39,654 nucleotides of DNA from Scytonema tolypothrichoides VB-61278. GTDB taxonomy: Bacteria > Cyanobacteriota > Cyanobacteriia > Cyanobacteriales > Nostocaceae. The position numbers and the translations under genes were made by a program. The notes beneath the pieces were generated by a model, which made no database searches, was not told the DNA's origin, and saw nothing but the letters and a program-made list of their open reading frames with translations. The DNA lies in NCBI RefSeq assembly GCF_000828085.3, contig NZ_JXCA02000022.1, positions 478,499 to 518,152 of the forward strand, read 5' to 3'. Positions 1 through 39,654 of the stretch are shown piece after piece (position 1 is the stretch's first letter; each line of letters starts with the position of its first letter).

Positions 1-395
1 GTTTCAATCCCTAATAGGGAGAAAGAGAAATTTCAACGTCAAAGCCTAAAGTGATGGCTTTTCACCCCAGTGGTTTCAATCCCTAATAGGGAGAAAGAGA
101 AATTTCAACGCTATTGTTGCAAATTTTGAAGGTTCATCACTTGGTTTCAATCCCTAATAGGGAGAAAGAGAAATTTCAACTTTGAACTCTGAGTCTGAAG
201 CGATAGAGTTGCTTGTTTCAATCCCTAATAGGGAGAAAGAGAAATTTCAACTATCTGTTGGTGAATCGGAAATACCCACGAATAAGTTTCAATCCCTAAT
301 AGGGAGAAAGAGAAATTTCAACGCAATACAGAAGTTACGTTCTAGGTTTGAGAATCAAGTTTCAATCCCTAATAGGGAGAAAGAGAAATTTCAAC
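1..395 (-). CRISPR. CRISPR array A, six 37-bp repeats, truncated by the window edge
   Basis: Six identical 37-bp repeats lie at 1-37, 73-109, 144-180, 215-251, 286-322 and 359-395, with five unique spacers of 34-36 bp between them. On the plus strand the repeat starts GTTTCAATCCCTAATAGGGA and ends AAATTTCAAC. On the minus strand it ends ATTGAAAC, the usual 8-nt 5' handle of class 1 crRNAs, and it contains the short palindrome TCCCTATTAGGGA that could be the Cas6 hairpin. I therefore infer transcription on the minus strand, from a leader at about 396-610. The spacer at 323-358 would then be the youngest. The array starts exactly with a repeat at base 1 and probably continues beyond the window. 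The repeat differs from that of array B by one base (position 22), so the type I-D proteins of this window probably serve both arrays. Confidence 0.98.
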
Positions 396-610
396 TGCGG
401 CACTCAGAAAACTGCACCATATAAAGTTTTCAAGGTTCTAAAGCGCGGATGAACTAATGATAGCAGAAAAAAAAGTAAATTAATTGACGGCAAATCGCTA
501 AAATCAAGTATAGGCAAGGAGCGCGGATGGGTTATCATCGAATATTCTCCAAAATCCTTGTAGTGTAAGCAATCCAAGCATTTTTTTCTAAACCCATTTT
601 TCTACACCTA
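396..610 (-). promoter_or_regulatory. Leader of CRISPR array A
   Basis: Read on the minus strand, this AT-rich segment aligns nearly end to end with the leader upstream of array B (39347-39560), roughly three quarters identical by eye. Shared blocks include GGTAGGTGTAGAAAAA, TGGATTGCTTACA, GCTATCATTAG and GAACCTTGAAAACTTTATAT, the last just before the array. TATCAT, with GTCAAT about 20 bases upstream, is a plausible promoter. The motif GCGCGGATG occurs at 443-451 and 521-529, and inverted at 613-621. The last two form a 12-bp perfect inverted repeat (521-532 with 610-621). No reading frame here looks coding. Confidence 0.75.
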
Positions 611-704
611 CCCATCCGCGCCATCGGTTCAGAAAATCATGTTATCACGAGGTTATTAAGCACACGTTTATCTTTGACCAAAACACCAGCCACACAGCAC
701 AGAA
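608..704 (-). pseudogene. Decayed 3' end of a cas2 gene
   Basis: On the minus strand, sequence upstream of leader A continues to align with the last 100 bases of the intact cas2 gene (39250-39349). Matching blocks, in order, are TTCTGTGC, TGTTTTGGT, AAAG, ACGT, ACCTCG-GAT-AC, ATTTTCT and GCGCGGATGGGTAG, the last containing the cas2 stop codon. The frame is destroyed by small indels and an internal TGA. The fragment begins almost exactly at the stop codon of the RNB ribonuclease gene, so the original insertion or rearrangement junction is near 705. The match is by eye and weakens toward the 5' side, but the order and spacing of the blocks make chance unlikely. Confidence 0.6.
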
Positions 705-2771
705 CTACATAGAATTCGCCGTAGGTTGCGCTTCTTGATAAATAATTTCTTGAAACTGAATCACATCTCTAAGTGGATCAGCATGACAGGCTTTCACTAA
801 AATCTGTTCGCCCAATTTCACAAAACGTTTAAATAACATTGGCAATTGCAAGCCTAAATGTTCTAACAAAATCAGCGCTAAACCACTATCTTCTCTCAAC
901 CACATCAACACTGTTGCTTCCCAAATTTCATCAGACTGACGGCGCAGATACTCTAAAGCCCAATATCTATTGGTTTGCCGTTCTACCATTGTTACTTCTT
1001 GGGTGATTGAAGATACGGTCATCATGACTTCTTTCAATTGTTCTGCTGAAAAGGGCAGCACTTCACCACGCAGGTGTGCTTTTAGTTGAAAGTGAGTCAG
1101 CAAATCGCTATAACGGCGGATAGGAGAAGTTGCTTGGGTATAGGTATCTAACCCTAAACCAGCATGTCTGACGGGGGTAATGCTCATTTCGCTCTTAGGC
1201 ATACAACGACGCATAGCGCAAGCCCGGACAAATCCTGCTGGCAATTGTAGCAATTCTTGCTCAGGAGGTAACTCTGGCTGTGGTTGACCGCGAAAGGGCA
1301 ATGGGATGTTATACTTTTGACCGTAGCGGGCTGCAACTTCGCCCGCAACAATCATCATTTCGGCGACTAATTGCCGTGATGTGGAGTCCTCTAATATATC
1401 GATGCTGATATTGTCGCCTTTGACTTTAATCATTGCTTCGGGCATGTTGATGCTGATGGCTCCTTGAGCATAGCGCCAAGCTTTACGTCGTCGTGCCCAA
1501 TTGGCGATCGCCGCAATTTCCGATTCTGCCTCCACGCCCAAATCCAACACTTCATCGACATCTTCGTAAGTCAGACGATATGTTGGTTTTATAAAACTTG
1601 GATGGATGCTATAGTCTTCTACTGCCCCAGTGTCATCTAAAATAATTCCAAAACTCAAGGCATAACAAACTTTTCCCTGTACTAGACTCATTGGTCCTGT
1701 TGCCAGAACTTCAGGGAACATAGGAACCATGCCTGTGGGTAAATATACTGTACTGCCTCGCTTTCTTGCGTCTAAATCTAACTCATCTTCTGGTATCAAC
1801 CAGCGCGTCGGATCAGCAATATGCACCCACAACCGCTCTTTGCCATCGGGAAGTAATTCCCAACTTAGACCATCATCTATCTCGGTTGTACTTTCATCAT
1901 CAATTGTGTACACCTTAAGATGGGTTAGATCCAGGCGGTTGACATCTCTGTCTGGTGGATGTGATTCCAATCGCTGTTGCGACACTTCTAATACCTTACT
2001 AGCGAACTGTACCGGAATTGACGAACGACGTAAAAATAAGTTCTCATGGGGACTCCAGCAACCCAAGTCCACTAACAGTTGAAAAGCACCTTGGGGGGTT
2101 GCGGGACGTCCCAGCATATTCATCGTTTCCAAGACCAATGCTGGAGGAGGATAGGCACGAGCTAGGGAATCATAATTTAACCCTACACGTACTATATCAG
2201 CAACTAGAGCTGCATATTTTTCTAGGGCTTCTAGGCGGTGGCGATCATAGCGTTGCCACTCTACTGGTTCACCTTTAAGCGCCTGCTCAACTTTTGCCAG
2301 GAATTCTTGCTGTCCTTTAGCTTTGAGTGCCTCTACCTCTAGTTGGTGTTTGCGTTCTGCCACTTGAGCTGCACTTCGCGGCTCGTAAGCATCTCCCTTC
2401 TGTTTGAAGTAAATTTTATCATCTGATAATAAATAATACGCTGCGTAGCAATGAGGCGGTTGTGATTCTGAAAACAGTAGATTTGCCATTTCACAAGGCG
2501 TCACTGTTTCCCCACCTTCTACGAGTAATTCCCAAGCGACTTCTAAACTAGTCGGTTCCAAATAAGGCTTAACTTCCTCTAAGAATCCGGGGATTTGCGA
2601 AGATTTGTAGGTTTCCCCAGTCACTGTGTAGGTGATTTGCCGAGGTGCGAGACTGTGGGATTGACCACGTTCATCTACCACAAAGAAACGACTTTTGCCG
2701 TCAGGGCGGTCTACTACACCCAAACGGCGATCGCTACCAAGTCGAAATTCAACTAGCGTCCCCTTCTCCAC
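705..2771 (-). CDS. RNB-domain exoribonuclease (RNase II/R family)
   Basis: A 688-residue protein with the RNase II catalytic (RNB) domain at about residues 280-600. The acidic metal-binding motif DDESTTEIDDGLSW is at 291-304, and the conserved QATSPIRRYSDLLTH block lies further on. Enzymes of this family degrade single-stranded RNA 3' to 5' in the cytoplasm during mRNA decay and RNA maturation. The N-terminal 60 residues look like a small beta-rich domain rather than a clear cold-shock domain, as in other cyanobacterial members. The start is GTG, preceded by GCGAGG. It lies downstream of rpmG and rpsR on the same strand, 108 bases after rpsR, and may be co-transcribed with them. Its 3' end abuts the cas2 relic and leader A. 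I cannot say whether it behaves as RNase II or RNase R. Confidence 0.92.
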   Translation of the reverse strand: MEKGTLVEFRLGSDRRLGVVDRPDGKSRFFVVDERGQSHSLAPRQITYTVTGETYKSSQIPGFLEEVKPYLEPTSLEVAWELLVEGGETVTPCEMANLLFSESQPPHCYAAYYLLSDDKIYFKQKGDAYEPRSAAQVAERKHQLEVEALKAKGQQEFLAKVEQALKGEPVEWQRYDRHRLEALEKYAALVADIVRVGLNYDSLARAYPPPALVLETMNMLGRPATPQGAFQLLVDLGCWSPHENLFLRRSSIPVQFASKVLEVSQQRLESHPPDRDVNRLDLTHLKVYTIDDESTTEIDDGLSWELLPDGKERLWVHIADPTRWLIPEDELDLDARKRGSTVYLPTGMVPMFPEVLATGPMSLVQGKVCYALSFGIILDDTGAVEDYSIHPSFIKPTYRLTYEDVDEVLDLGVEAESEIAAIANWARRRKAWRYAQGAISINMPEAMIKVKGDNISIDILEDSTSRQLVAEMMIVAGEVAARYGQKYNIPLPFRGQPQPELPPEQELLQLPAGFVRACAMRRCMPKSEMSITPVRHAGLGLDTYTQATSPIRRYSDLLTHFQLKAHLRGEVLPFSAEQLKEVMMTVSSITQEVTMVERQTNRYWALEYLRRQSDEIWEATVLMWLREDSGLALILLEHLGLQLPMLFKRFVKLGEQILVKACHADPLRDVIQFQEIIYQEAQPTANSM

Positions 2772-3292: not shown

Positions 3293-3394
3293 AATCTTAC
3301 AAAACGTTGACTCTGACGAGAATTAGCAGTTATCAGTTATCAGTTATCAAGTACCAGCCGCAGTTATCAGGGAGGTTAAGAAATTGCTGACTCT

Positions 3395-3443
3395 GTTCCC
3401 TGTTTCCTGTTCCCTGTTCCCTGTTTCCTGTTCCCTGTTCCCT
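3395..3443. repeat. Seven tandem heptamers GTTCCCT/GTTTCCT
   Basis: Seven 7-bp units run without interruption in the order GTTCCCT, GTTTCCT, GTTCCCT, GTTCCCT, GTTTCCT, GTTCCCT, GTTCCCT, which also gives a 21-bp higher-order period. A shorter run of TTATCAG heptamers precedes it at about 3330-3350. Such short tandemly repeated repetitive sequences are typical of filamentous cyanobacteria. The same heptamer appears inverted at 11015-11035. The rest of 3293-3645, between L33 and RidA, shows no gene. Confidence 0.85.
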
Positions 3444-3645
3444 GTGTCACTGTTCACTGATTTAACACAAATAGCTATTATCTCATATTACGTCGTGTTT
3501 TTCCAACTAACCGCTTAATTTTTCTGTCAAGCGAATAGCCACGACGCGACTTTTCTTTGTATGCGTTCTTGAAGTTCTGGTGATAACTTTTAGAGTTGTT
3601 TGAAAACACGTTTAGAAATTTCGACTGTATAACTCACGCTATAAC

Positions 3646-27251: not shown

Positions 27252-28118
27252 TTAAGAAGGAATTTCTAGATTGTAACGTTGGTAAAGCAATTTGAGTTTT
27301 TCTTGAGCAAGCGATCGCACGTTTTCCGGCGAGATAATCAAAACGTCCGGTGTATCTCGCAAAACTTCGCGGAGAAACCAGTAGGTATTGGAAATGCGTC
27401 TGACGACTCGACGAACTGGTGGAGAAGCTTCCAACAATTTACTGTCTACATCCTCATTTTTGGTTTTGTAAGCAAAAGCCAAGCGTCCATGTATATGCAT
27501 TTCTACTTGCAGTTCATCTAAATTGGAACGCCATTTACCAGAAATTGGTATCACACCTGCTTCTGGAATTCTATCTAGACGTAAACTCCAGTTGTGATGC
27601 AATTCTTCCACATCCAAATTCCCTTCTGTTTCTTCACACCAGCAATCAAGATATTGACGTTCTTCATAAGGAACTATTTTGGCGTGGCGAACGGTAAAGT
27701 TCCACAAGCGCCCTGTTGCATCTTGGTAGGAAAGCTGAAATGGTTGCTCGCGCCGGATGTATTGGTTAAGTTCTATTCGCCAGGGTGGGGGAGGATTTCC
27801 TAAAAACCGTTCGATTTCTGCTCTCAGAGGCAATGATAGCTCGCTGCGTTCCAAGAGTAAATTGGCAATAAGCAAAGCTTCTTCTAGCTTACCTAAATCT
27901 ATTAAAGCATCAATAGCGTGCTTTAGCGCCGTTATCCGCTCTTGTAACCAGTTGTTATTGGGAGTAATCAGCAATCGCTGTTGAGCAATGGCTTCTACTA
28001 ACTTGGAAATGTTTGGGCGATCGCCCCACATCATCCCAAATTCACGAGCAAGGTTTTCTAGTTCAGCTTTGTCACGTTCTGATACTGATAGGGTTATTGA
28101 CTGACCTTTGCGAGTCAT
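27252..28118 (-). CDS. WYL-domain transcriptional regulator of the type I-D cas operon
   Basis: A 288-residue protein. The N-terminus (MTRKGQSITLSVSERDKAEL, then FGMMWGDRPNISKLVEAIAQ) looks like a ribbon-helix-helix or winged DNA-binding segment. The C-terminal half is WYL-like: FQLSYQDATGRLWNFTVRHA, then YLDCWCEETEGN and WSLRLDRIPEAGVIP, with the WYL triad degenerate. It is divergent from cas3 with about 97 bases between the start codons. In Synechocystis the WYL protein Sll7009 represses the type I-D system, so the same role is likely here, with autoregulation through the shared promoter. A WYL domain may sense nucleic-acid fragments; that is inference. Confidence 0.85.
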   Translation of the reverse strand: MTRKGQSITLSVSERDKAELENLAREFGMMWGDRPNISKLVEAIAQQRLLITPNNNWLQERITALKHAIDALIDLGKLEEALLIANLLLERSELSLPLRAEIERFLGNPPPPWRIELNQYIRREQPFQLSYQDATGRLWNFTVRHAKIVPYEERQYLDCWCEETEGNLDVEELHHNWSLRLDRIPEAGVIPISGKWRSNLDELQVEMHIHGRLAFAYKTKNEDVDSKLLEASPPVRRVVRRISNTYWFLREVLRDTPDVLIISPENVRSLAQEKLKLLYQRYNLEIPS

Positions 28119-28125
28119 ATTTATA

Positions 28126-28222
28126 CGGACACTTTATACTTACATCTTCTTGTCAATCTCTATTTTGCGTGCCAAGATAGATTTCAACAACCAGTTACGG
28201 ACACTATTTAAATTTATGTCCG
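28126..28222. promoter_or_regulatory. Divergent WYL/cas3 promoter with repeated CGGACAC boxes
   Basis: TACGGACACT occurs twice in the same orientation (core CGGACAC at 28126-28132 and 28198-28204), 72 bases apart. The second box also pairs with an inverted TGTCCG at 28217-28222 that includes the cas3 start codon region, giving CGGACA-N13-TGTCCG. One box lies 8 bases upstream of the WYL start and the other overlaps the cas3 start. This arrangement suits a repressor acting on both genes. No binding data are available. Confidence 0.5.
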
Positions 28223-30429
28223 AATATAACATTATTCTTAAACCTGTTTATTCATGCCCTGCATCTATATCGGATGTTCCCAAGGGGGTGAAACTACCAG
28301 AAGGCTGGATGCTTTCCTGGCATCAAGCAGAAACTCTAAAGGCGATACGCAATCCAGATGTAGATGTTATTTCCAACACTGCTATGACTGGCGATGGCAA
28401 AACTCTTGGTGGTTATCTGGACATTTTACAAGTATATTCTCCTATCTTAGGATTATATCCGACTAACGAACTGGCAAGAGACCAAGAAATGCAAGTTCGG
28501 GGATATATTGATTTATTTCAGCCTGAACATGAACCGCGTGTTCATCGCTTGAGTGGGCAAGAGTTAGAAATTTACGCGGAACAAGAAAACTTGAAAAAAG
28601 GCGCAGCCTTAGAAACACGAGTCGGGCAAACCGAGATTCTACTGACAAATCCAGATATTTTTCATTACCTGCATCGAGGCGCGTATCTACTTCCCAACGA
28701 TAGTCCAGATAAACTGTGGGGAAGGATTGATAAGCGTTTCAATGTGATTGTGTTCGACGAGTTTCATGTTTTCCAAGCACCGCAGATTGCTAGCGTCATC
28801 AATACCATGCTGTTAATTCGTCGTACCAATCGGCGTAAGAAGTTTCTGTTTCTTTCTGCGACACCAAATCCGCAGTTAGTTGAGAGGCTTAAATTAGCAG
28901 GGTTTCGTTGTTATGAAATTGATCCACTCAAAGAGAACAAATATAAATTCCCTGATACTGCTATTGAATATCAGCAGGTAAAAGCTCAAAGTTGGCGGCA
29001 AGTCTCGCGAGAAATATCCTTACATTTTGTCCGGCTAGAACCTACCTCAAAAGCGTCTGAAACTTGGCTGAAAAAGAATAGTGAGTTGATTTTGACTCAC
29101 TTGCAACACAGTGGTAAAGGTGCAATTATTCTGAACTCAATTGCCGCAGTCAAGCGGTTAACTGACTTTTTTGATAATTTTCTTAAGCCGTACGGGTTTC
29201 AAGTTAGCGAAAATACTGGTTTGTCAGGGAAGAAAATAAAGGAGGAATCGCTTGAGGCTGACTTAGTTTTGGGAACCAGCACTATTGATGTTGGTGTAGA
29301 TTTCAAAATCAATTTCTTATTCTTTGAGTCAGCGGATGCTGGTAATTTTATTCAGCGTTTGGGTAGATTGGGACGACATGATGGATATGAACGTGACGGA
29401 CAACATATAACTTTTAGCGATTGTACTGCCTATGCACTTGCACCTAACTTCTTAATTGACAAACTTTTTAAGAGTGATTCCCCAGCTTTGAAGTCAGGGG
29501 AGGTTTACGAACGTCCTTTTTTTCACGAACAAATTCGGGAGAATTACCGCAAAATCAATAATTTTGAAGGTTACTACTTCAAGTGGGGTGTTGTACAGTC
29601 AATGCGACTTGTTCGACAGTTGGGACATCCTAATGTTAAGCAGCAGTACGAAAGTAGCCAGGAAGTATTTAAAAACGATTGTGAACTCGTTTTCAGTACC
29701 GATAAGAAAAAAGTAAACCTCAAATGTGTGTTTGTTCGTAGCAAAGAATGGGAAAAGGAGTGGCAGGAACTATCAGGAACAGACAAGGGAAACCCAATTT
29801 TAGAAGAAGCGGCGAGTTTTCGGGGTACGAGTCCTTTGCTATGCGGAATTTATGACACGACTGAACCAAATGAGGTAGATAGATTTAAAACTTACGATTT
29901 ACCAGGGATTCTCAGCAATTTGGAAATTGAACCGATGAGGGGGACAGAATTTGAAAGGCTGCGTTGTGCGATCGCCACAGGCGGGGCTTTGCCCATCGCA
30001 GAACGAACCAATACCCCCATCCCCAAAGGCAGATTTAAATACTGTCTAGGATTTATGAAGTTGCTTGGATATCGAGAGGAAAGACTGGATTGGAAATTTA
30101 CTTATCCTGGGGACTTGCAAGCGATCGCCAATGCTTGGAAAGTTCAAGTTTTGTTGGGTATCCAAGTTTGGCAGCCAGGAAACTACTGGATTAGTGATAT
30201 TAATAAGCAACTGAAGAAACAGGCGTTGGTTTCTTATGTGGTACCTTTACGTGTTGATGAAGTACGGGGGCGACTACAACTGCCGATGCACTTCGAGATT
30301 TACCCAATTAGCGATCAATTCAGCGTCCACGATGCTACACCACCATATTGTATAGCGTTTGGGCAGTCGGCGCTGTTGTTGGATACGCTGGCAGGCTGGC
30401 TTAAGAGTGAGGGGATATATGTTGTTTAG
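28216..30429 (+). CDS. cas3: Type I-D Cas3 helicase (Cas3')
   Basis: A 737-residue superfamily 2 helicase without an HD domain, as in type I-D, where the nuclease is fused to Cas10d. Walker A is AMTGDGKT (56-63), motif II is DEFH (181-184), motif III SATPNP, and the C-terminal motifs LGTSTIDVGVDF and NFIQRLGRLGRH bind ATP and DNA. It is recruited to target-bound Cascade and unwinds DNA for cleavage. I start at the ATG at 28216 (MSEYNIILKPVYS) since the upstream frame overlaps the divergent WYL gene. Within the operon it is followed by a 316-base gap, longer than elsewhere, so cas10d may have its own promoter. Confidence 0.93.
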   Translation: MSEYNIILKPVYSCPASISDVPKGVKLPEGWMLSWHQAETLKAIRNPDVDVISNTAMTGDGKTLGGYLDILQVYSPILGLYPTNELARDQEMQVRGYIDLFQPEHEPRVHRLSGQELEIYAEQENLKKGAALETRVGQTEILLTNPDIFHYLHRGAYLLPNDSPDKLWGRIDKRFNVIVFDEFHVFQAPQIASVINTMLLIRRTNRRKKFLFLSATPNPQLVERLKLAGFRCYEIDPLKENKYKFPDTAIEYQQVKAQSWRQVSREISLHFVRLEPTSKASETWLKKNSELILTHLQHSGKGAIILNSIAAVKRLTDFFDNFLKPYGFQVSENTGLSGKKIKEESLEADLVLGTSTIDVGVDFKINFLFFESADAGNFIQRLGRLGRHDGYERDGQHITFSDCTAYALAPNFLIDKLFKSDSPALKSGEVYERPFFHEQIRENYRKINNFEGYYFKWGVVQSMRLVRQLGHPNVKQQYESSQEVFKNDCELVFSTDKKKVNLKCVFVRSKEWEKEWQELSGTDKGNPILEEAASFRGTSPLLCGIYDTTEPNEVDRFKTYDLPGILSNLEIEPMRGTEFERLRCAIATGGALPIAERTNTPIPKGRFKYCLGFMKLLGYREERLDWKFTYPGDLQAIANAWKVQVLLGIQVWQPGNYWISDINKQLKKQALVSYVVPLRVDEVRGRLQLPMHFEIYPISDQFSVHDATPPYCIAFGQSALLLDTLAGWLKSEGIYVV

Positions 30430-30745: not shown

Positions 30746-33700
30746 ATGCCGAATAAACGCAAAAAATCAGAAGAACAAGCACAACTAATCTCTCTTGATG
30801 AAGCCAATCATGACATTGACTCCGAAGAGTTGGAGAACTCAGATAATGAGTGGATGTCTGGAGATGACTCAGACTATGAAATAACATCTAATCGCACAGT
30901 CGAAACCAAACCATCTGAACTCCTCACCCTCAAGTTATTGCAAAGAGCGATCGCAACAGAAAATCCTGATGATTTTATTATGCGGGACTTTAGTCATTAT
31001 GTCTTACCAAACTTATTGCGGGTAGCTATTGGAGTGACGGCGAAGGGTGGTAAATTTTTTGATTATCTCGACCAAAAGAAAGGTAAAGAAAATGTTAGAC
31101 GAGATAACGCAGGTGACCAATCTTTGAATACACACTTACTTAATGGATTGCTTCCAGCTAATCTGATTGAACGTCGTCTCAAAAAACTAAACACAACTGC
31201 AAGAAGAGTCATTCATGAAAAAGAAAGGCGGTTACTAATTGCTGGATTTATCCTACATGATTTTGAAAAGTTCGATTATCGGCTGTTTTCAAAAATGCCG
31301 GAAGTGTACAAAGCGATCGCTTTAGACAGAGAACAAAAAATCCGTGAGTTACCTCTAGCAGCACACCGTGAAATTATAGATGTGATTGTTCGGGAACTGA
31401 ATCTTGATAAATTTCTCAGTCCCGACGAACCAGAAACATGGCAAGAATATCGAGATGATTTATTATTCATTGCGTATAACGCCCAAAGAAGAACTGATAC
31501 GAATTTAAATCTTTCTGAGCATGGGTTACAGCCAATACTTAATGATTATGTCCTTGTCTGTCTTGCTGACTTAACTTGTATAGCTGATTTACTCGCCTCC
31601 GTTATTAAACATCCTCAAGATGCTGAACACCGTACTTTAAATGGTATTCTCCACAATATAAGTGATGGACAACTGAAATTAACTTATCACCGAGTTGCTG
31701 AGAACAGAGGTGTTTTAACTAATGTGGTGAATAATGCTTTGATGGAGGCTCACACAAGTTTAAACACAAAAGATTGTGAATATTACAAGCCATTGTTATA
31801 TTTACCAACGGGTGTTGTTTACTTAACACTCTGCAATTCACCAGCGATATCGACTGAAGATTTACCAGATAGAGTAGTTCACAAGATTAAAGAATTTTGT
31901 GGTGGACAACTTATCAAGCGTCAAACTGGTTTTGGTAGAGATGGTAAAGGCATGAAATATGCCGAGTATTATGATAAATTCTTTGATGACATAGGATTGA
32001 TGCGGGTTGCACTCAAGGCAACTTTACGGATTCTCAAATCTGGGAAAAGTTCAGTTGCTAAAAGTCGCAGTGATAATTTAGTTAAGTTTCAGCAGCAAGG
32101 CGTTCTCTCGGCTGATTACAATTTCACTTTTTCTGATGATATACGTATCGACCAAATTGCTGAGTTTGGTGACGTCATCACTCGTAAAATTTGGGGAGAA
32201 AAGGTTAAGAAAATTGAAGAATTACGAAAAGAAAGCAAGAAAAATAAGAAGGAGTTACTACCATTCCCTAATTTAGACTTAGTAGGAGAGGTGGCAAAAT
32301 TATGGAATTTAGAGGAGTCTTTATCTCCAATTCGAGAAATACAAGGAATTAACGAAAAGCTCAAGGAACTAAAACTTAAGGGTAACACTGGAGGCGTACC
32401 TTATGAGTGGTATTATTTGGCGTCACAGTATTTAGAACGTCACCCAGAAATTGAAAATGTAGAGCAAGTTTGTGAGGATGTTATCAACCACCTGGAAAAG
32501 TTCATCTCGCCAATTGTATTGCAGTACAAGTTACCAGATGGGTGGGACGATTTACGCTTGTGGGTGCAGCGTGTTGTCATTCTACCCGGAAAGGATATGC
32601 AAGATATTGATTCTACAAAGATTTTTCTGGATGAATTGGAACGCTATCAACTCGCCAAGAAATCTGGGCGAGGACGACAGTTAATTTGTTCTGTTTCTCA
32701 TTCTGCTTACACCGTCACAGAACAGATGGAATCTGCGGTGCTGTTTACTCCTCAAGTTTACACAAATAAGCAAATGCTGGGTGGTTCCAACGCAAAACGC
32801 AACATTTCCAGCATTGCAGGTATAGAAATGATGTTGCGTCAAATCTTGATGAACCAAACTCAAGCGGTGGGTAAGAGGTTTGAGGATGGTAAGTACCGTT
32901 ATCTCTATTTTTATCCAACTTATTACTGCACGCCAGAGACGAATAAGTTTCTTCAATGGGCTTATACTAACATTGCTCAAACTCGGTTTAATGCTAGTAT
33001 CCGCAATCACTTTATCAATGATGAATTGCAAGCAGATTTTGGACGACAACGTTATCAAAGTGTTGACACATTCCTGATTGATGAGGACTTACAACGCAAA
33101 AAAGATTTACCAGAAAATCATCCAGAACGTAAGCAAGACCGAACATTTAAGCTTTCTTATCCCGAAGACCAACCTTTAACATTTTACTTTATAGCGCTAC
33201 CACCAGGACTCGATCCGACTGATACTGAATCCTGGGTTATGCCAAGTTGGTTAGCGTTTGCTTTCCCAATGATTTTGGATGTTAAGACTGTGGTTTCTGA
33301 GTCACCCATTCCACCATTTAATGATGGGGCTGAATTTGAAGAAACTGTGTTTTTGGATAGTGCGCCGCAAGCTTTTCGGGTGTTGGTAGGACGAGATAGG
33401 TTTCGTCTTGACTATATTCTTGAAGGCTGGGAGGAAAATAACAAAAAATATCCTGCACCTCTGAACGTATTAACCGCTGCTTATGCAATTCATCTCGATG
33501 TTAATGCTAAACAAAGTAAAGGAAAATATGAATCTAACTGGGGCAAGTTTTCTGAATTAGCAAGAGATTTAGAAACAAGTCCACTGAATGTCTTTAGCTA
33601 CCTCAAAAGTTGGACGCGACGCCAAGGCGTGGAAACACCTAGCATAAATAAAATCAAGCTCTATGCTTATTACTTTTACCCTTGTTTTGACCCCTATGCA

Positions 33701-34207
33701 GAATATGATTTTCAATCGGAGACATGGAAAGTGACACAAAAATCGCAATTGAACCATCCTAAAGAATTAACAGAAAGATTCCGAAAATTCTACAGACACG
33801 CTAAGAAAACTGGTAAGCAACCAATTCCAGCAAATGCGATTCTTAAACCCATTGATGTCGCTGCTGATATCATTCTCAAAGCTGACACAAGTTTTTCTGA
33901 TGATGCATTGATTGATTTGGTAACAGCGGAAGTCTTCCAGTTAATGAAGCGAGTTCATGCTTCTAGGGCGGAAGGACGTTGGGTAATTAGTAATAAAGAG
34001 GAGGAATTACAAGCTATTCGAGATTTTGCTGAGTATTTTGTGGTTAAGGTTTTTCATGAATCTTTTGCAGGCGATCGCGCTCGTTTACAAGGACGCCAAA
34101 TGAACTACATCCGTAACACTTGCGAATACCTTTACCGCTTAGCCAATTATCAAGAACGTTCTCTAAAAGAAGAAGAGAAGACAGATGATTTAGATATGGA
34201 TGACTAA
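30746..34207 (+). CDS. cas10d: Type I-D Cas10d (Csc3), large subunit with HD nuclease
   Basis: A 1153-residue large Cascade subunit. The first 60 residues are acidic and probably disordered (EELENSDNEWMSGDDSDYE). The HD nuclease domain follows, with H171-D172 in LHDFEKFD and conserved NTHLLNGLLP upstream. The central part corresponds to the Cas10 palm-like region without a GGDD motif, so no cyclic-oligoadenylate synthesis is expected. CSVSHSAYTVTEQMES suggests a degenerate zinc-finger position. The C-terminal 160 residues are helical and probably also translated separately as Cas11d. Cas10d takes part in PAM recognition and cuts target DNA. It is followed by csc2 after 100 bases. Confidence 0.93.
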   Translation: MPNKRKKSEEQAQLISLDEANHDIDSEELENSDNEWMSGDDSDYEITSNRTVETKPSELLTLKLLQRAIATENPDDFIMRDFSHYVLPNLLRVAIGVTAKGGKFFDYLDQKKGKENVRRDNAGDQSLNTHLLNGLLPANLIERRLKKLNTTARRVIHEKERRLLIAGFILHDFEKFDYRLFSKMPEVYKAIALDREQKIRELPLAAHREIIDVIVRELNLDKFLSPDEPETWQEYRDDLLFIAYNAQRRTDTNLNLSEHGLQPILNDYVLVCLADLTCIADLLASVIKHPQDAEHRTLNGILHNISDGQLKLTYHRVAENRGVLTNVVNNALMEAHTSLNTKDCEYYKPLLYLPTGVVYLTLCNSPAISTEDLPDRVVHKIKEFCGGQLIKRQTGFGRDGKGMKYAEYYDKFFDDIGLMRVALKATLRILKSGKSSVAKSRSDNLVKFQQQGVLSADYNFTFSDDIRIDQIAEFGDVITRKIWGEKVKKIEELRKESKKNKKELLPFPNLDLVGEVAKLWNLEESLSPIREIQGINEKLKELKLKGNTGGVPYEWYYLASQYLERHPEIENVEQVCEDVINHLEKFISPIVLQYKLPDGWDDLRLWVQRVVILPGKDMQDIDSTKIFLDELERYQLAKKSGRGRQLICSVSHSAYTVTEQMESAVLFTPQVYTNKQMLGGSNAKRNISSIAGIEMMLRQILMNQTQAVGKRFEDGKYRYLYFYPTYYCTPETNKFLQWAYTNIAQTRFNASIRNHFINDELQADFGRQRYQSVDTFLIDEDLQRKKDLPENHPERKQDRTFKLSYPEDQPLTFYFIALPPGLDPTDTESWVMPSWLAFAFPMILDVKTVVSESPIPPFNDGAEFEETVFLDSAPQAFRVLVGRDRFRLDYILEGWEENNKKYPAPLNVLTAAYAIHLDVNAKQSKGKYESNWGKFSELARDLETSPLNVFSYLKSWTRRQGVETPSINKIKLYAYYFYPCFDPYAEYDFQSETWKVTQKSQLNHPKELTERFRKFYRHAKKTGKQPIPANAILKPIDVAADIILKADTSFSDDALIDLVTAEVFQLMKRVHASRAEGRWVISNKEEELQAIRDFAEYFVVKVFHESFAGDRARLQGRQMNYIRNTCEYLYRLANYQERSLKEEEKTDDLDMDD
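33731..34207 (+). CDS. cas11d: Cas11d small subunit, internal start within cas10d
   Basis: An in-frame GTG at 33731 (codon 996 of cas10d) is preceded by GGAG at 33718-33721 with a 9-base gap, a good ribosome-binding site inside a coding region. The product would be 158 residues (starting MTQKSQLNHPKELTERFRKF), mainly alpha-helical, as expected of Cas11. In type I-D systems, including Synechocystis, the small subunit is known to be made from an internal start in cas10d. The exact start used here is my inference. An alternative in-frame start further downstream would give a shorter protein. Confidence 0.55.
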   Translation: MTQKSQLNHPKELTERFRKFYRHAKKTGKQPIPANAILKPIDVAADIILKADTSFSDDALIDLVTAEVFQLMKRVHASRAEGRWVISNKEEELQAIRDFAEYFVVKVFHESFAGDRARLQGRQMNYIRNTCEYLYRLANYQERSLKEEEKTDDLDMDD

Positions 34208-34307: not shown

Positions 34308-35315
34308 ATGAATTGTTTAAAAACTGTCGATGCCAAACACTTTCATGCTGAAATCCCTTATAAACCAATGGGAAAGTACGTTCATTTTTTGACCATACGT
34401 GTAACTGAATCCTATCCACTCTTTCAAACTGATGGCGAACTCAATAAATCACGAGTCCGAGCAGGAATTGAAGATAAAATAACGATTAGCCGCTTGACAA
34501 TGTTTAAGCGTAAACAATCAACACCAGAGCGTTTAGTCGGTCGAGAATTACTCCGTAATTATGGTTTCATGACTGCCCAAGAGTGCGAATATAACGTCAA
34601 ATTTGCAATGGATAATCCTGATTGTATTATCTATGGTTTTGCGATTGGTGATTCTGGTTCTGAAAAATCAAAAGTGGTGGTAGATACAGCTTTTTCCATC
34701 ACTGACTTTGCTGAATCACATGAAACATTTACCCTCAACGCTCCCTTTGAAAATGGTACAATGACATCCAAGGGTGAAAATGGTTCAAAACCTGGTGAAG
34801 TTACTAGTCGTATCAATCAGCAAGACCACATTAAACCTCAAATATTTTTTCCTAGCATTGTTACATTAAAAGACCCCACAGAAGCAAGCTTCTTATACGT
34901 TTTTAATAACATCTTGCGTACTCGTCATTATGGGGCGCAAACGACACGTACAGGAAGAGTGCGGAATGAATTAATAGGTGTAGTATTTGCTGATGGAGAG
35001 ATTATCAGCAATTTACGCTGGACGCAAGCAATGTATGACTATATGAAGAAGAATGCATCTCTAAATTCTCCAGAACCATTAAATGAAGATGATGTCATTG
35101 AAGCTGCAACTAATACAATTGTTAACTTAATGCAAGGAGAATTTATTGTACATGAAGACTTTATTGGTGAACAATTTAAACCTTTACTTGATGAAGTCAA
35201 AGCTATCACTGCCAAAGAAGAACAATTGAAAAAAATGCTTAAAAAAGCAGATGATGAAGCCAAGGCTTATGCTCAAAAACACATAAAAGGAAAAGACAAA
35301 GTTTCAGCTAAATAA
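34308..35315 (+). CDS. csc2: Type I-D Csc2 (Cas7d), backbone subunit
   Basis: A 335-residue Cas7-family protein that polymerises along the crRNA spacer to form the Cascade backbone. The N-terminal HFHAEIPYKPMGKYVHFLTI and the following TISRLTMFKRKQSTPERLVG are typical of Csc2. ILRTRHYGAQTTRTGRVRNE and GVVFADGEIISNLRWTQAMYD follow, and the C-terminus is helical and lysine-rich. A GGAGA ribosome-binding site lies 7 bases before the ATG. It is followed by csc1 after only five bases. Confidence 0.95.
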   Translation: MNCLKTVDAKHFHAEIPYKPMGKYVHFLTIRVTESYPLFQTDGELNKSRVRAGIEDKITISRLTMFKRKQSTPERLVGRELLRNYGFMTAQECEYNVKFAMDNPDCIIYGFAIGDSGSEKSKVVVDTAFSITDFAESHETFTLNAPFENGTMTSKGENGSKPGEVTSRINQQDHIKPQIFFPSIVTLKDPTEASFLYVFNNILRTRHYGAQTTRTGRVRNELIGVVFADGEIISNLRWTQAMYDYMKKNASLNSPEPLNEDDVIEAATNTIVNLMQGEFIVHEDFIGEQFKPLLDEVKAITAKEEQLKKMLKKADDEAKAYAQKHIKGKDKVSAK

Positions 35316-35320
35316 CAACT

Positions 35321-36040
35321 ATGACTTTTATTTACTGCTGTCAGCTAGAACTCCACGACAGCTTATATTACGCAACTCGTGAGATAGGAAGACTCTACGA
35401 GACAGAACTAGTGATTCACAATTACGCACTTTGCTATGCATTGGGATTAGTAGATAGTGAAATCTACTCTACAATTGTTGCAGAAGAACATTCCTATCGT
35501 TACTTTTGTCCTGAACAAGTCCCCAAATATGAGGAACATCTAACACCGCTCAATCACCAGAACATTTACGTCACTCCAGGGCATTCAATTAACCATACTA
35601 CCATTCTCAATACCTGGAAGTACGCTAATAACAACTACCATGTGGAAATGGAGAAAACTCAAAAGAATATTCCTAGTTTTGGAAGGACAAAAGAGATTGC
35701 ACCAGAAAGTCAATTTGAATTTTTCGTAATTTCTCAAAAGCAACTCAGACTACCAAAATGGATTCGCTTGGGTAAGTGGATGAGTAAAGCAGAAGTGCAG
35801 ACTCAAGAAGTCACCAAATTTGAATTAAAAACTGGTGACTTCTCTTTCCCTTACCCATTGAATCCTCTAGATGTGATGTTTACTCATCAAGTTGTTAGTT
35901 ACGACGTAGTTAATATGCCTCCTGTGAGTCTGATTCAAAATGTCAGCATTCGCCAAGGACAATATTACGAGTTTGAAAATCCAAACAAATCTGAAAAACT
36001 ACGACTTCCAGCCAGAATGCAGTATCGGTTTAAGGGTTAA
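35321..36040 (+). CDS. csc1: Type I-D Csc1 (Cas5d)
   Basis: A 239-residue Cas5-family protein that caps the 5' handle of the crRNA in the type I-D Cascade. MTFIYCCQLELHDSLYYATR is the first ferredoxin-like strand and helix. FEFFVISQKQLRLPKWIRLG and the C-terminal RLPARMQYRFKG fit the family. It starts five bases after csc2, so the two are translated together. The 174 bases that follow contain a heptamer repeat. Confidence 0.93.
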   Translation: MTFIYCCQLELHDSLYYATREIGRLYETELVIHNYALCYALGLVDSEIYSTIVAEEHSYRYFCPEQVPKYEEHLTPLNHQNIYVTPGHSINHTTILNTWKYANNNYHVEMEKTQKNIPSFGRTKEIAPESQFEFFVISQKQLRLPKWIRLGKWMSKAEVQTQEVTKFELKTGDFSFPYPLNPLDVMFTHQVVSYDVVNMPPVSLIQNVSIRQGQYYEFENPNKSEKLRLPARMQYRFKG

Positions 36041-36214: not shown

Positions 36215-37096
36215 ATGCCCCACAGCCTCGTCCTCAACCTCATCCCCCAGTCTCCCATTTACCCCGAATTCCTCACAGGTAGACACTACCACGCCCTATT
36301 CCTCACCCTCATTAGTTCAGTCGATAAAGATTTAGGAGACTATTTACACGCATCCAACGCAGAGAAACCCTTCACCCTTTCCCCCTTACAAGTCACACGA
36401 AATCATAAAAGCCACCAATACAAACACAACACCTTGCAATTTTCCCATCAACGCCCAATTCCTCCAGGTACACCCTGTTGGTGGCGTATTTCACTCCTAG
36501 ACGACAACCTATTTAGCAAGCTGACTCCACTGTGGCTAAATCTTAACCCCGAACATCCCTGGCATTTGGGTTCTGCTGATTTGTATATTACTAGCATCCT
36601 TGGTACACCACAATCAATGCAACCTTGGGCAAATGCTTGTACCTATACACAATTGTACGACCAAGCAAAAGAGAGCGATCGCACTCTCAACTTTACCCTC
36701 GCCACACCTGTCGCTTTCCGCCAAGGAGGATACGATACCATTCTGCCAATTCGAGAATGTGTCTTCAACAGTCTTCTCAGTCGCTGGAACAAATATAGTG
36801 GAATTGAATTTACCAACATCCCTATAGAATCAATTTATCCAAGCTTTTGTAACATCCATACAGAAGTTATTCGTAACTATGACAACAAATTTGTTGGTTG
36901 TGTCGGCGAAATCAGCTATCGGATTTTAGGAGATATTGAACCAATCGCCATCAAACAAATCAACGCCCTTGCTGACTTTGCATTATATGCAGGAGTTGGA
37001 CGTAAAACAACAATGGGTATGGGTATGATACGTCGTCTCTTGATGAGTCATTCTCCTTCATCAAATGTTGAAAAAAATCTTGAAAACTATGAATGA
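36215..37096 (+). CDS. cas6: CRISPR RNA endoribonuclease Cas6
   Basis: A 293-residue Cas6. The C-terminal glycine-rich loop is well formed (YAGVGRKTTMGMGMIRRL), and FRQGGYDTILPIRECVFNSLLSRW corresponds to the second ferredoxin-like domain. It cleaves the repeat RNA to leave the 8-nt handle ATTGAAAC and should recognise the stem TCCCTA/TAGGGA of the repeat. Catalytic residues (usually a histidine near the N-terminus) cannot be fixed by eye; H23 and H25 in GRHYHALF are candidates. Its stop codon overlaps the cas4 start by eight bases. Confidence 0.92.
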   Translation: MPHSLVLNLIPQSPIYPEFLTGRHYHALFLTLISSVDKDLGDYLHASNAEKPFTLSPLQVTRNHKSHQYKHNTLQFSHQRPIPPGTPCWWRISLLDDNLFSKLTPLWLNLNPEHPWHLGSADLYITSILGTPQSMQPWANACTYTQLYDQAKESDRTLNFTLATPVAFRQGGYDTILPIRECVFNSLLSRWNKYSGIEFTNIPIESIYPSFCNIHTEVIRNYDNKFVGCVGEISYRILGDIEPIAIKQINALADFALYAGVGRKTTMGMGMIRRLLMSHSPSSNVEKNLENYE

Positions 37097-37682
37097 GACA
37101 GAATACATTCCTATTGCTTCCTTAAACCAATATGCCTATTGCCCACATCGCTGCTGGCGGATGTTTTGTGCAAGTGAATTCATCGATAACCAATACACAA
37201 TTGAAGGCACAAGTTTACACGAACGAGTTCACACCCTTGGGGAAGGAAATCGTGACGACACCTGGCAAGTTCGAGCGATTTGGCTGAAATCAGACAAATA
37301 CAAACTTATCGGAAAATCTGATTTAATTGAATCAGAAAATGGTGAGTTGTATCCAGTCGAATACAAGCGGGGACGTAAGGGTGAATGGGATAACGATGAA
37401 TTGCAAGTCTGTGCTCAAGCTTTATGTCTAGAAGAAATGACAGGACAAACTGTCACGACTGGCTATGTTTACTACGCACACTCACACCAACGTCAATTAG
37501 TAGAAATTACAGAAGAATTGCGTCAAAGCACAATCGCCACAATTGAAGCTGTTCAAATGCTTATCCTAACAGCTATTATACCAAAACCTGTCAAGACAAA
37601 GCGCTGTACAGGATGCAGTTTGTACACACGATGCTTACCAGAAATTGTGGACAAAGTAGGACGGTATCAAGAAGTTTACTAA
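37089..37682 (+). CDS. cas4: CRISPR-associated exonuclease Cas4
   Basis: A 197-residue RecB-like nuclease with an iron-sulfur cluster. It has the first cysteine in YAYCPHRCWRMFC (C18), the metal-binding D78 in LIGKSDLIE, and E91/K93 in PVEYKRGRKGE. The C-terminal cysteine cluster is KRCTGCSLYTRCLPE. Cas4 trims prespacers and selects PAM and orientation with Cas1-Cas2. I use the ATG at 37089 because it gives the standard N-terminus. The frame could begin at 37065, but that would overlap cas6 more. The hairpin cascade at 37694-37921 separates it from cas1. Confidence 0.95.
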   Translation: MNETEYIPIASLNQYAYCPHRCWRMFCASEFIDNQYTIEGTSLHERVHTLGEGNRDDTWQVRAIWLKSDKYKLIGKSDLIESENGELYPVEYKRGRKGEWDNDELQVCAQALCLEEMTGQTVTTGYVYYAHSHQRQLVEITEELRQSTIATIEAVQMLILTAIIPKPVKTKRCTGCSLYTRCLPEIVDKVGRYQEVY

Positions 37683-37972: not shown

Positions 37973-38977
37973 ATGGGCACACTTTACATTACACAAGACG
38001 ATGCATTTATCGGCAAAATCGATGAGAGACTTCACGTCAAATTCGATAAAAAGACAATTTTAGATGTACCGCTTCTCAAAATCGATGGAGTCGTAGTATT
38101 AGGACGCGCAACAGTTTCACCTGCTGCTATCAATGAATTATTGCAGCGTCAAATTCCCCTAACATTTCTAACAGAAACAGGTCGTTATTTAGGACGTTTA
38201 GAACCAGAAGTCACCAAAAACATTTTTGTGCGTAAAGCGCAATGGCAAGCAGCAGGTGATACCGCTCAAGCAATTCATGTCGTCCAAGGGTTTGTACGTG
38301 GTAAACTGAAAAATTATCGTAGCCTCCTTGTTCGTCGTCAACGTGAATGCTCAGGGTTAGATTTATCAAACAGCATCGCACGGTTAGACCAAGCGATCGC
38401 ACCCATCGACACAACTCACAACATTGATTCTTTACGCGGATTGGAAGGTGCAGGTAGCGCAGCTTACTTTGGCTGCTTTGATCAAATGATTCGCAATACA
38501 GGATTCACCTTTACCAAGCGCGTTCGTCGTCCACCCACCGATCCAGTGAATTCCTTACTCAGCTTTGGTTATTCCTTGCTGTGTCATGACGTCCAAAGTG
38601 CAGTGAATATTGCTGGGTTTGATTCTTATCTGGGATATTTACATTGCGATCGCTACGGTAGACCCTCACTCGCGTTAGATTTAATGGAAGAATTCCGTCC
38701 TTTGGTAGTCGATGCAGTCGTGTTGTCTGCGTTGAACAAACAATTTCTGAAAGTTGAGGATTTCGTCACAGAATCTTTAAGCGGTGCTGTTTCTCTCACC
38801 AACGAACCAAGAAAAACATTTCTGCGGCTATACGGACAAAAGAAATTATCCGAATTTAAGCATCCCGTTTTAGGACGCAAATGTACTTACCAAGAAGCGT
38901 TTGAACTTCAAGCCCGGTTACTCGCTAAATATTTAATGGGCGAAATCGAGAAATATCCACCATTGGTTCTCAAGTAG
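37973..38977 (+). CDS. cas1: CRISPR integrase Cas1
   Basis: A 334-residue Cas1 that integrates spacers at the leader-repeat junction. The metal-binding residues are E158 (SLRGLEGAGS), H224 (GYLHCDRYGRPS) and D236 (LALDLMEEFRP). The N-terminal beta domain (MGTLYITQDDAFIGKIDERL) dimerises. The length is normal for type I systems. It begins 52 bases after the last hairpin of the cascade and is followed by cas2 after a gap with a heptamer repeat. Confidence 0.97.
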   Translation: MGTLYITQDDAFIGKIDERLHVKFDKKTILDVPLLKIDGVVVLGRATVSPAAINELLQRQIPLTFLTETGRYLGRLEPEVTKNIFVRKAQWQAAGDTAQAIHVVQGFVRGKLKNYRSLLVRRQRECSGLDLSNSIARLDQAIAPIDTTHNIDSLRGLEGAGSAAYFGCFDQMIRNTGFTFTKRVRRPPTDPVNSLLSFGYSLLCHDVQSAVNIAGFDSYLGYLHCDRYGRPSLALDLMEEFRPLVVDAVVLSALNKQFLKVEDFVTESLSGAVSLTNEPRKTFLRLYGQKKLSEFKHPVLGRKCTYQEAFELQARLLAKYLMGEIEKYPPLVLK

Positions 38978-39012
38978 GCGTAAGAGTCATCAGTTATCAG
39001 GTTTCATTGCTC

Positions 39013-39044
39013 ACTGTTAACTGTTCACTGTTAACTGTTCACTG
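39013..39044. repeat. Tandem ACTGTTA/ACTGTTC heptamers between cas1 and cas2
   Basis: Four full alternating heptamers (ACTGTTA, ACTGTTC, ACTGTTA, ACTGTTC) and a partial fifth run just 18 bases before the cas2 start. Any ribosome-binding site of cas2 would have to lie in the remaining ATTCGGTCAATTTGCCT. Confidence 0.75.
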
Positions 39045-39061
39045 ATTCGGTCAATTTGCCT

Positions 39062-39349
39062 ATGAATGTTGTTGTGTCCTACGACATCTCTGAAGATAAG
39101 CGCCGTACAAAAATTCACAAAGTCCTCAAATCTTACGGGCAGTGGGTGCAGTATAGTGTGTTTGAGTGCCAGCTGAGTGATACTCAATATGCAAAGTTGC
39201 GATCGCGCTTGCACAAACTCATCAAGCCTGATACTGATAGTATCAAGTTTTATTTTCTGTGCGCCTGCTGTTTTGGTAAAGTCGAACGTATCGGCGGCGA
39301 ACCACCTCGCGATGACACCATTTTCTTTGCCGAATGCGCGGATGGGTAG
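39062..39349 (+). CDS. cas2: CRISPR-associated Cas2
   Basis: A 95-residue ferredoxin-fold protein that bridges two Cas1 dimers. MNVVVSYDISEDKRRTKIHK holds the conserved aspartate after the first strand. I use the ATG at 39062; a TTG two codons earlier is less likely. The last codons (CADG and the TAG stop, within GCGCGGATGGGTAG) lie in the first GCGCGGATG motif of the array B leader, so gene and leader overlap. A decayed copy of its 3' end is at 608-704 on the other side of the window. Confidence 0.95.
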   Translation: MNVVVSYDISEDKRRTKIHKVLKSYGQWVQYSVFECQLSDTQYAKLRSRLHKLIKPDTDSIKFYFLCACCFGKVERIGGEPPRDDTIFFAECADG

Positions 39350-39560
39350 GTGTAGAAAAAGAGGTTTAAAAAAAATGGCTGGATTGCTTACAGGACTTGG
39401 ATTTCGGGGTAAAATTGTTTCTAACCATCCGCGCTTCTTGCCTAGACTGGATTTCAGCCATTTACCTGTCAATCAATTTACTTTTTTGCATGCTATCATT
39501 AGAACACCCGCGATTTAGAACCTTGAAAACTTTATATAGACCAGTTCTCAGACTGGGACC
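39336..39560 (+). promoter_or_regulatory. Leader of CRISPR array B
   Basis: An AT-rich leader beginning inside the end of cas2 and ending at the first repeat at 39561. GCGCGGATGG (39336-39345) and its inverted partner CCATCCGCGC (39425-39434) match the same elements of leader A. A degenerate third copy is near 39505-39513. TATCAT at 39494-39499, preceded by TGTCAA, is the likely promoter. The last segment GAACCTTGAAAACTTTATAT is identical in both leaders. Confidence 0.78.
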
Positions 39561-39654
39561 GTTGAAATTTCTCTTACTCCCTATTAGGGATTGAAACTTT
39601 GAATATATACCATTTCAGAAGGACGTAAGTAAGGTTGAAATTTCTCTTACTCCC
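39561..39654 (+). CRISPR. CRISPR array B, one full repeat, one spacer and a partial repeat at the edge
   Basis: A 37-bp repeat at 39561-39597 begins GTTGAAATTTCTCTTACTCC and ends ATTGAAAC, followed by a 36-base spacer (39598-39633) and the first 21 bases of the next repeat. It is the reverse orientation of array A, with one base changed (A in place of T at position 16 of this orientation). The leader at its left marks 39598-39633 as the youngest spacer. The array continues beyond the window. Confidence 0.95.

Follow-up and report, generated by a model that had tools for sequence, protein, structure and literature searches.

How did a stand-alone CRISPR array come to lie beside a broken piece of cas2 at the end of an RNB ribonuclease gene, at the opposite end of the window from its cas genes? 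By the window we mean the whole stretch of DNA analysed, 39,654 nt from a 650,664-base contig of Scytonema tolypothrichoides VB-61278. Cyanobacteria that have many arrays, some of them of a type I-D-like repeat family, have been described (PMC4916379), and duplication is one recognised way in which multiple arrays originate (PMC12814883). At its right end the window has a complete type I-D locus, followed by a leader and array B. Arrays A and B occupy opposite ends, and both point outward, in opposite directions. The features concerned are the following.

1-395, minus strand: CRISPR array A, leader-proximal part, with six 37-nt repeats GTTGAAATTTCTCTTTCTCCCTATTAGGGATTGAAAC
396-607, minus strand: array A leader of 212 nt, homologous to that of array B (alignment with shuffles, blastn)
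443-451, plus strand: internal copy of the CGCGGATG motif, reading CATCCGCG on the leader strand (sequence; conserved columns of the leader alignment)
521-530, plus strand: second inner CGCGGATG copy, CCATCCGCGC on the leader strand (sequence; conserved columns of the leader alignment)
604-621, minus strand: leader 5′ element GCGCGGATGGGTAGGTGT of array A (instance collection, leader alignments)
622-704, minus strand: decayed cas2 3′ tail, its frame broken by indels, homologous to about 39250-39335 (alignment, blastn)
705-2771, minus strand: RNB-domain ribonuclease gene, its stop forming the junction with the cas2 tail (Pfam RNB, 9.1e-80; junction comparison)
28108-30429, plus strand: cas3′ helicase, type I-D (TIGR03158, 7.9e-111)
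30746-34207, plus strand: cas10d/csc3, the type I-D signature (TIGR03174, 1.1e-286)
34308-35315, plus strand: cas7d/csc2 (TIGR03157, 1.9e-109)
35321-36040, plus strand: cas5d/csc1 (TIGR03159, 1.5e-68)
36215-37096, plus strand: cas6 (TIGR01877, 1.5e-24)
37065-37682, plus strand: cas4 (TIGR00372, 1.2e-49)
37973-38977, plus strand: cas1d (TIGR04093, 1.1e-132)
39056-39349, plus strand: intact cas2, probable ATG start at 39062, final 14 nt within the leader element (Pfam Cas2, 4e-28)
39336-39353, plus strand: leader 5′ element GCGCGGATGGGTAGGTGT of array B, overlapping the cas2 stop (sequence; cas2 comparison)
39350-39560, plus strand: leader of array B, 211 nt (sequence, alignment)
39561-39654, plus strand: start of CRISPR array B (repeat sequence)

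The cas locus was assigned to type I-D by Cas10d/Csc3, Csc2, Csc1, cas3′ and cas1d, all of which scored above the curated NCBIfam cut-offs. Its order, cas3′-cas10d-cas7d-cas5d-cas6-cas4-cas1d-cas2-leader-array, is that of the type I-D system on plasmid pSYSA of Synechocystis 6803. Unlike in Synechocystis 6803, a second array with a cas2 scar lies at the far end of the 39-kb window, and the 5′ element of the leader overlaps the cas2 stop; the exact element was absent from the type I-D cas2-to-array stretch of Synechocystis 6803. Short tandem CTGTTCACTGTTAACTGTTCACTG-type repeats were also seen between cas1 and cas2 (39007-39045), with related repeats at 3393-3452.

Array A shares both its repeat and its leader with this locus. 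The repeats of the two arrays are identical at 36 of 37 positions and differ at one. Between the cas2 stop, or the position that corresponds to it, and the first repeat, the leaders measure 211 nt (array B) and 212 nt (array A). Both lie within the range of about 202-220 bp that PMC10212523, which describes the work of Kieper et al. 2019, gives for type I-D leaders with three conserved motifs. The six readable spacers of array A average 34.7 nt, close to the 35 nt or so of type I-D, including that of Synechocystis 6803; the means ranged from 34.7 to 36.4 nt across 19 arrays. With its nearly identical repeat and its distance from the cas genes, array A resembles other multiple or stand-alone arrays that share one cas locus. 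A third array in the same genome (G000:C1:971018) starts with the same 18-nt leader element and has a different repeat, GTTGAAATTATCTATTCCCCGTTAAGGGGATTGAAAC, with 247 nt between element and repeat, compared with about 225.

The sequence-only reading had matched 608-704, read on the minus strand, to the end of cas2, with homology running on into the leader and repeats. Alignment and shuffling confirmed the resemblance, the leaders proved homologous, and 622-704, on the minus strand, turned out to be the final third of the intact type I-D cas2 (39056-39349) in decayed form. In the pairwise alignment suggested as a check, the reverse complement of 396-760 was compared with 39056-39560; the local alignment ran continuously through the cas2 tail and the leader with few gaps. 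Against 1000 dinucleotide shuffles, 608-704 scored 59 with cas2 (shuffle mean 16.5, SD 2.4) and none of the shuffles scored as high. With GCGCGGATGGGTAG left out, 624-704 alone still scored 38 (shuffle mean 16.6, 0 of 1000 as high), and the score of the tail was unmatched even without the GCGCGGATGGG block. For the leader at 396-607, aligned with that of array B, the score was 213 (shuffle mean 18.3, 0 of 1000). Apart from the query, the genome matched 396-704 at E up to 0.001 in one place, the cas2-leader copy (78% over 297 nt, E 1.8e-61). The coordinates need one correction, as the similarity is traceable to the very base that adjoins the RNB stop (705-707); by blastn with a cas2-leader query, it begins 8 nt past that stop. 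The fragment at 608-704 is not a functional cas2, as it holds only the last third of the gene, lacks a full-length frame and contains indels.

The end of the RNB gene had also been taken as the start of the fragment, and comparison with relatives places the junction there too. RNB was found in one copy in each of the 14 genomes searched. Five of them, all of the Brasilonema group (G000, the source genome, to G004), have an array of the array-A repeat downstream of it, and in the other nine no such array was found in the downstream RNB flank examined, which spanned a few hundred bases to several kilobases. No relative was seen to have another gene at the place of 608-704, and four have the decayed tail there. 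The cas2-leader similarity found by blastn begins 8 nt past the RNB stop in G000-G003 and about 20 nt past it in G004. The RNB C-terminus reads ...N-stop in the arrayless G005 and G011, and ...N-S-M-stop in G000-G004 and in the arrayless G006. Thus, the last two RNB codons and the stop may derive from the insert, the alignment over those bases being ambiguous. As G006 shares the RNB end of the array-bearing genomes, it may have lost its array later; it may also show the state before insertion.

The far side of the insertion was less informative. The sequence past the array in G000 is unlike that in the G003/G004 pair, and the downstream neighbours of RNB vary among the arrayless genomes; therefore, none of the genomes compared offered a clean empty site flanked by matching sequence on both sides. 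The protein encoded beside RNB in G005 and G006, presumably a GMC-type oxidoreductase, is encoded elsewhere in the other genomes searched or has only weaker or partial matches there. In a leader tree the RNB-locus leaders formed one group, weakly (support 49/80; 50% of bootstrap trees), so a single insertion is not proved, and the tree did not tell donor from copy. Two further observations concern these neighbourhoods. In another genus, that of G008, a different Cas2-like gene, about 48% identical, is convergent to RNB (G008:C53; L045, 172-378), which puts a CRISPR gene next to the 3′ end of RNB there as well. G004 has two type I-D arrays (L060, L061) and no cas2 match at E 0.01, which could reflect a real loss, the arrays being orphans in a genome that lacks adaptation genes, or a gap in the assembly, a draft of about 410 contigs.

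The stop codon of cas2 lies, at the cas locus, within the 18-mer GCGCGGATGGGTAGGTGT. A search of 217 genomes of the family found its pattern in 98, and the reversed pattern, as a control, gave 0 in every row listed. We collected 132 instances, from which three loci present at two lengths were removed, leaving at least 129 unique ones. The set was gathered by exact match, so the invariance of the element within it is by construction. In 24 of these at least 129 instances no repeat was detected at 220-251 nt (locus ends, solitary elements and non-cyanobacterial chance matches), and one with less than 60 nt of upstream sequence was set aside. The 104 that could be judged have their first repeat 220-251 nt downstream and at least 60 nt of upstream sequence. 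Among the matches listed, intact cas2 lies upstream in 28 of the 104 and not in 76, one of the latter being judged on only 233 nt of upstream sequence. In 34 of these 76 listed matches the element adjoins a short stretch whose resemblance to cas2 exceeds the 99th percentile of a null drawn from the same sequences (<1 expected), and no significant tail was found in the other 42. The cas2 match upstream of the element stays above background for about 16-20 nt and then fades. The leader itself has two extra inverted copies of the element core (CATCCGCG) in conserved blocks, the second immediately 5′ of AACCTTGAAAAC, in an alignment of 84 rows, one of them a locus present twice. Some loci, mostly labelled Nostoc (L092, L110, L111, L120, L165), have the element and a similar leader start with no CRISPR repeats detected downstream; they are possibly dead or array-less leaders.

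The element was also compared among the cas2 genes nearest to that of the window, 30 best-ranked matches and not a random sample. Twenty-one of these 30 read through the element and nine stop before it. The exact 18-mer stands at that place in 21 of the 30, and 28 have it within two mismatches; the remaining two differ at four positions. Seven of the nine early-stopping genes keep the element within two mismatches, the other two being those that differ at four positions. In a separate alignment the exact element was present in 19 of 20 leaders. Being mostly kept where it is untranslated and where cas2 is absent, the element would fit a DNA-level role in the leader, and we infer that it is retained as a leader DNA element would be. 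The nine early-ending genes (L235, L236, L242-L244, L246, L248-L250) encode a Cas2 five residues shorter, so the ECADG C-terminus of Cas2 looks dispensable.

We also compared how fast tail and leader diverge. At the RNB locus, pairwise identity was 0.62-0.85 for the tail (80 nt) and 0.79-0.93 for the leader, with the tail lower in all 10 pairs. The order was reversed at the cas locus, where identity was 0.91-1.00 for the cas2 end and 0.78-0.92 for the leader, with the cas2 end higher in 15 of 15 pairs; in both comparisons the genome pairs are not independent. The faster divergence of the tail beside RNB, together with the fading of the cas2 match past about 20 nt, suggests that most of the cas2 tail of array A looks like a neutral scar, and its last 16-20 nt could be functional. 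Among 418 readable spacers in 19 arrays (six from array A and one from array B), no pair reached the alignment score used, the RNB-locus arrays included. As the five RNB-locus arrays have no readable spacer in common, turnover has probably replaced their contents since the species diverged. On this indirect evidence, array A probably works and is served in trans.

Elsewhere in the genus, stand-alone arrays likewise carry only 3′ ends of cas2, and the left ends of their blastn matches vary. These lie at 39203 (in G001, G005 and G006), at about 39312 (G001, G003 and G004) and at 39336, which is the leader element itself (G006). Another copy, whose match starts at 39201, lies in G005 about 5.5 kb past the intact locus of that genome. 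Over residues 62-97 (36 residues) it is 97% identical to the Cas2 of the window, and its tail contains an insertion. This recent-looking copy shows that duplication need not include the whole of cas2. The breakpoints 39201 and 39203 both fall inside the sole GCGATCGC palindrome of cas2 (39199-39206), one of 27 such palindromes in the window. We take this palindrome to be the HIP1 repeat; it is a possible recombination site, a lead and not a mechanism. The loci with breakpoints at GCGATCGC are L055 (about 11725), L053, L056 and L057.

These observations are best explained if array A arose from a copied partial cas2-leader-array segment, in which the end of cas2 hitch-hiked because the leader starts inside cas2. 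We hold this to be probable. The element GCGCGGATGGGTAGGTGT includes the cas2 stop, so any copy of a working leader would have to take along at least the final bases of cas2. The copied module was probably composed of the 3′ end of cas2, the leader and an array, because the 5′ element of the leader overlaps the cas2 stop. In this scenario, a segment that took in the last third of cas2, the complete leader and part of an array would have been copied from a cas2-leader-array locus and joined to the 3′ end of RNB in an ancestor of most of the sampled Brasilonema-group species. After insertion the leader would have stayed under selection, the cas2 tail would have decayed neutrally, and array A would have kept gaining spacers through Cas1, Cas2 and Cas4 supplied by the distant cas locus, at the window's opposite end. 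As to a vehicle, neither phage nor plasmid has support. There was no match to 396-704 in the phage collection; two exact element matches in viral contigs, without CRISPR repeats in the stretches inspected, look like chance, and two in plasmids overlap annotated cas2 genes.

It has to be asked whether a complete cas2 was once present beside RNB, as the sequence-only reading had proposed in deriving the fragment from a whole module of which one cas2 copy later decayed. The cas2 origin of the fragment, its continuity with the leader and its junction at the RNB end all stood; the former presence of a whole cas2 found no support in the junction common to five genomes and the 3′-only tails elsewhere. 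If a complete cas2-leader-array module or even the whole cas operon had been inserted at RNB and the part from the RNB stop to the middle of cas2 deleted later, a cas2-derived tail would likewise be present, and a single ancestral deletion would yield the same junction in five genomes. However, the deletion would have to end at the end of the RNB gene and to precede the species split, the other loci, including the recent-looking copy in G005, have only 3′ parts of cas2 with varied left ends, and no full-length cas2 adjoins RNB among the matches listed for seven genomes of the genus. We therefore consider insertion of the whole unlikely, and partial copying, rather than insertion of an operon followed by deletion, is what we infer from the sequences compared.

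Somewhat less probable still is that the tail is no scar but a functional extension of the leader, such as an upstream promoter or an integration enhancer. The short cas2-like stretch retained 5′ of the element in those 34 of 76 listed matches without intact cas2 would agree with it, as would a cas2 match that exceeds background for about 16-20 nt, but past about 20 nt the match is at background, and beside RNB the tail has diverged more than the leader in every pair, with indels. As for chance or convergent similarity limited to the conserved GCGCGGATGGGTAG block, the block does recur inverted in the leader, which gives the idea some footing. However, the shuffle test rules it out, since 624-704 without the block still beats all 1000 shuffles, and the decayed tail occupies the same place in four relatives; its probability is negligible.

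We found no description of cas2-tail scars, or of a leader element overlapping the cas2 stop, in searches of the open-licence literature. Extra arrays are often traced to their origin through the repeats and spacers that they share, and spacer turnover is fast. This is also how ancestry is judged in the available part of PMC12814883, whereas here it is judged by a cas2 fragment, with no readable spacer in common. A piece of cas2 joined to the leader decays more slowly, and as a mark it indicates the kind of donor locus, the unit copied and the point of insertion. The overlap of the element with the cas2 stop offers a testable reason for arrays sitting directly 3′ of cas2, and the element, about 225 nt from the integration site, is a candidate for the place where the adaptation machinery or a host factor makes contact. 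On balance, we lean towards the view that the 3′ end of cas2 in type I-D systems of Nostocales has a dual use, as the end of Cas2 and as the outer element of the leader, and that leader-array units bearing this element may be copied around chromosomes as minimal immune modules that lack cas genes, cas2 scars of different length tracing each event once turnover of the spacers has removed every other trace.
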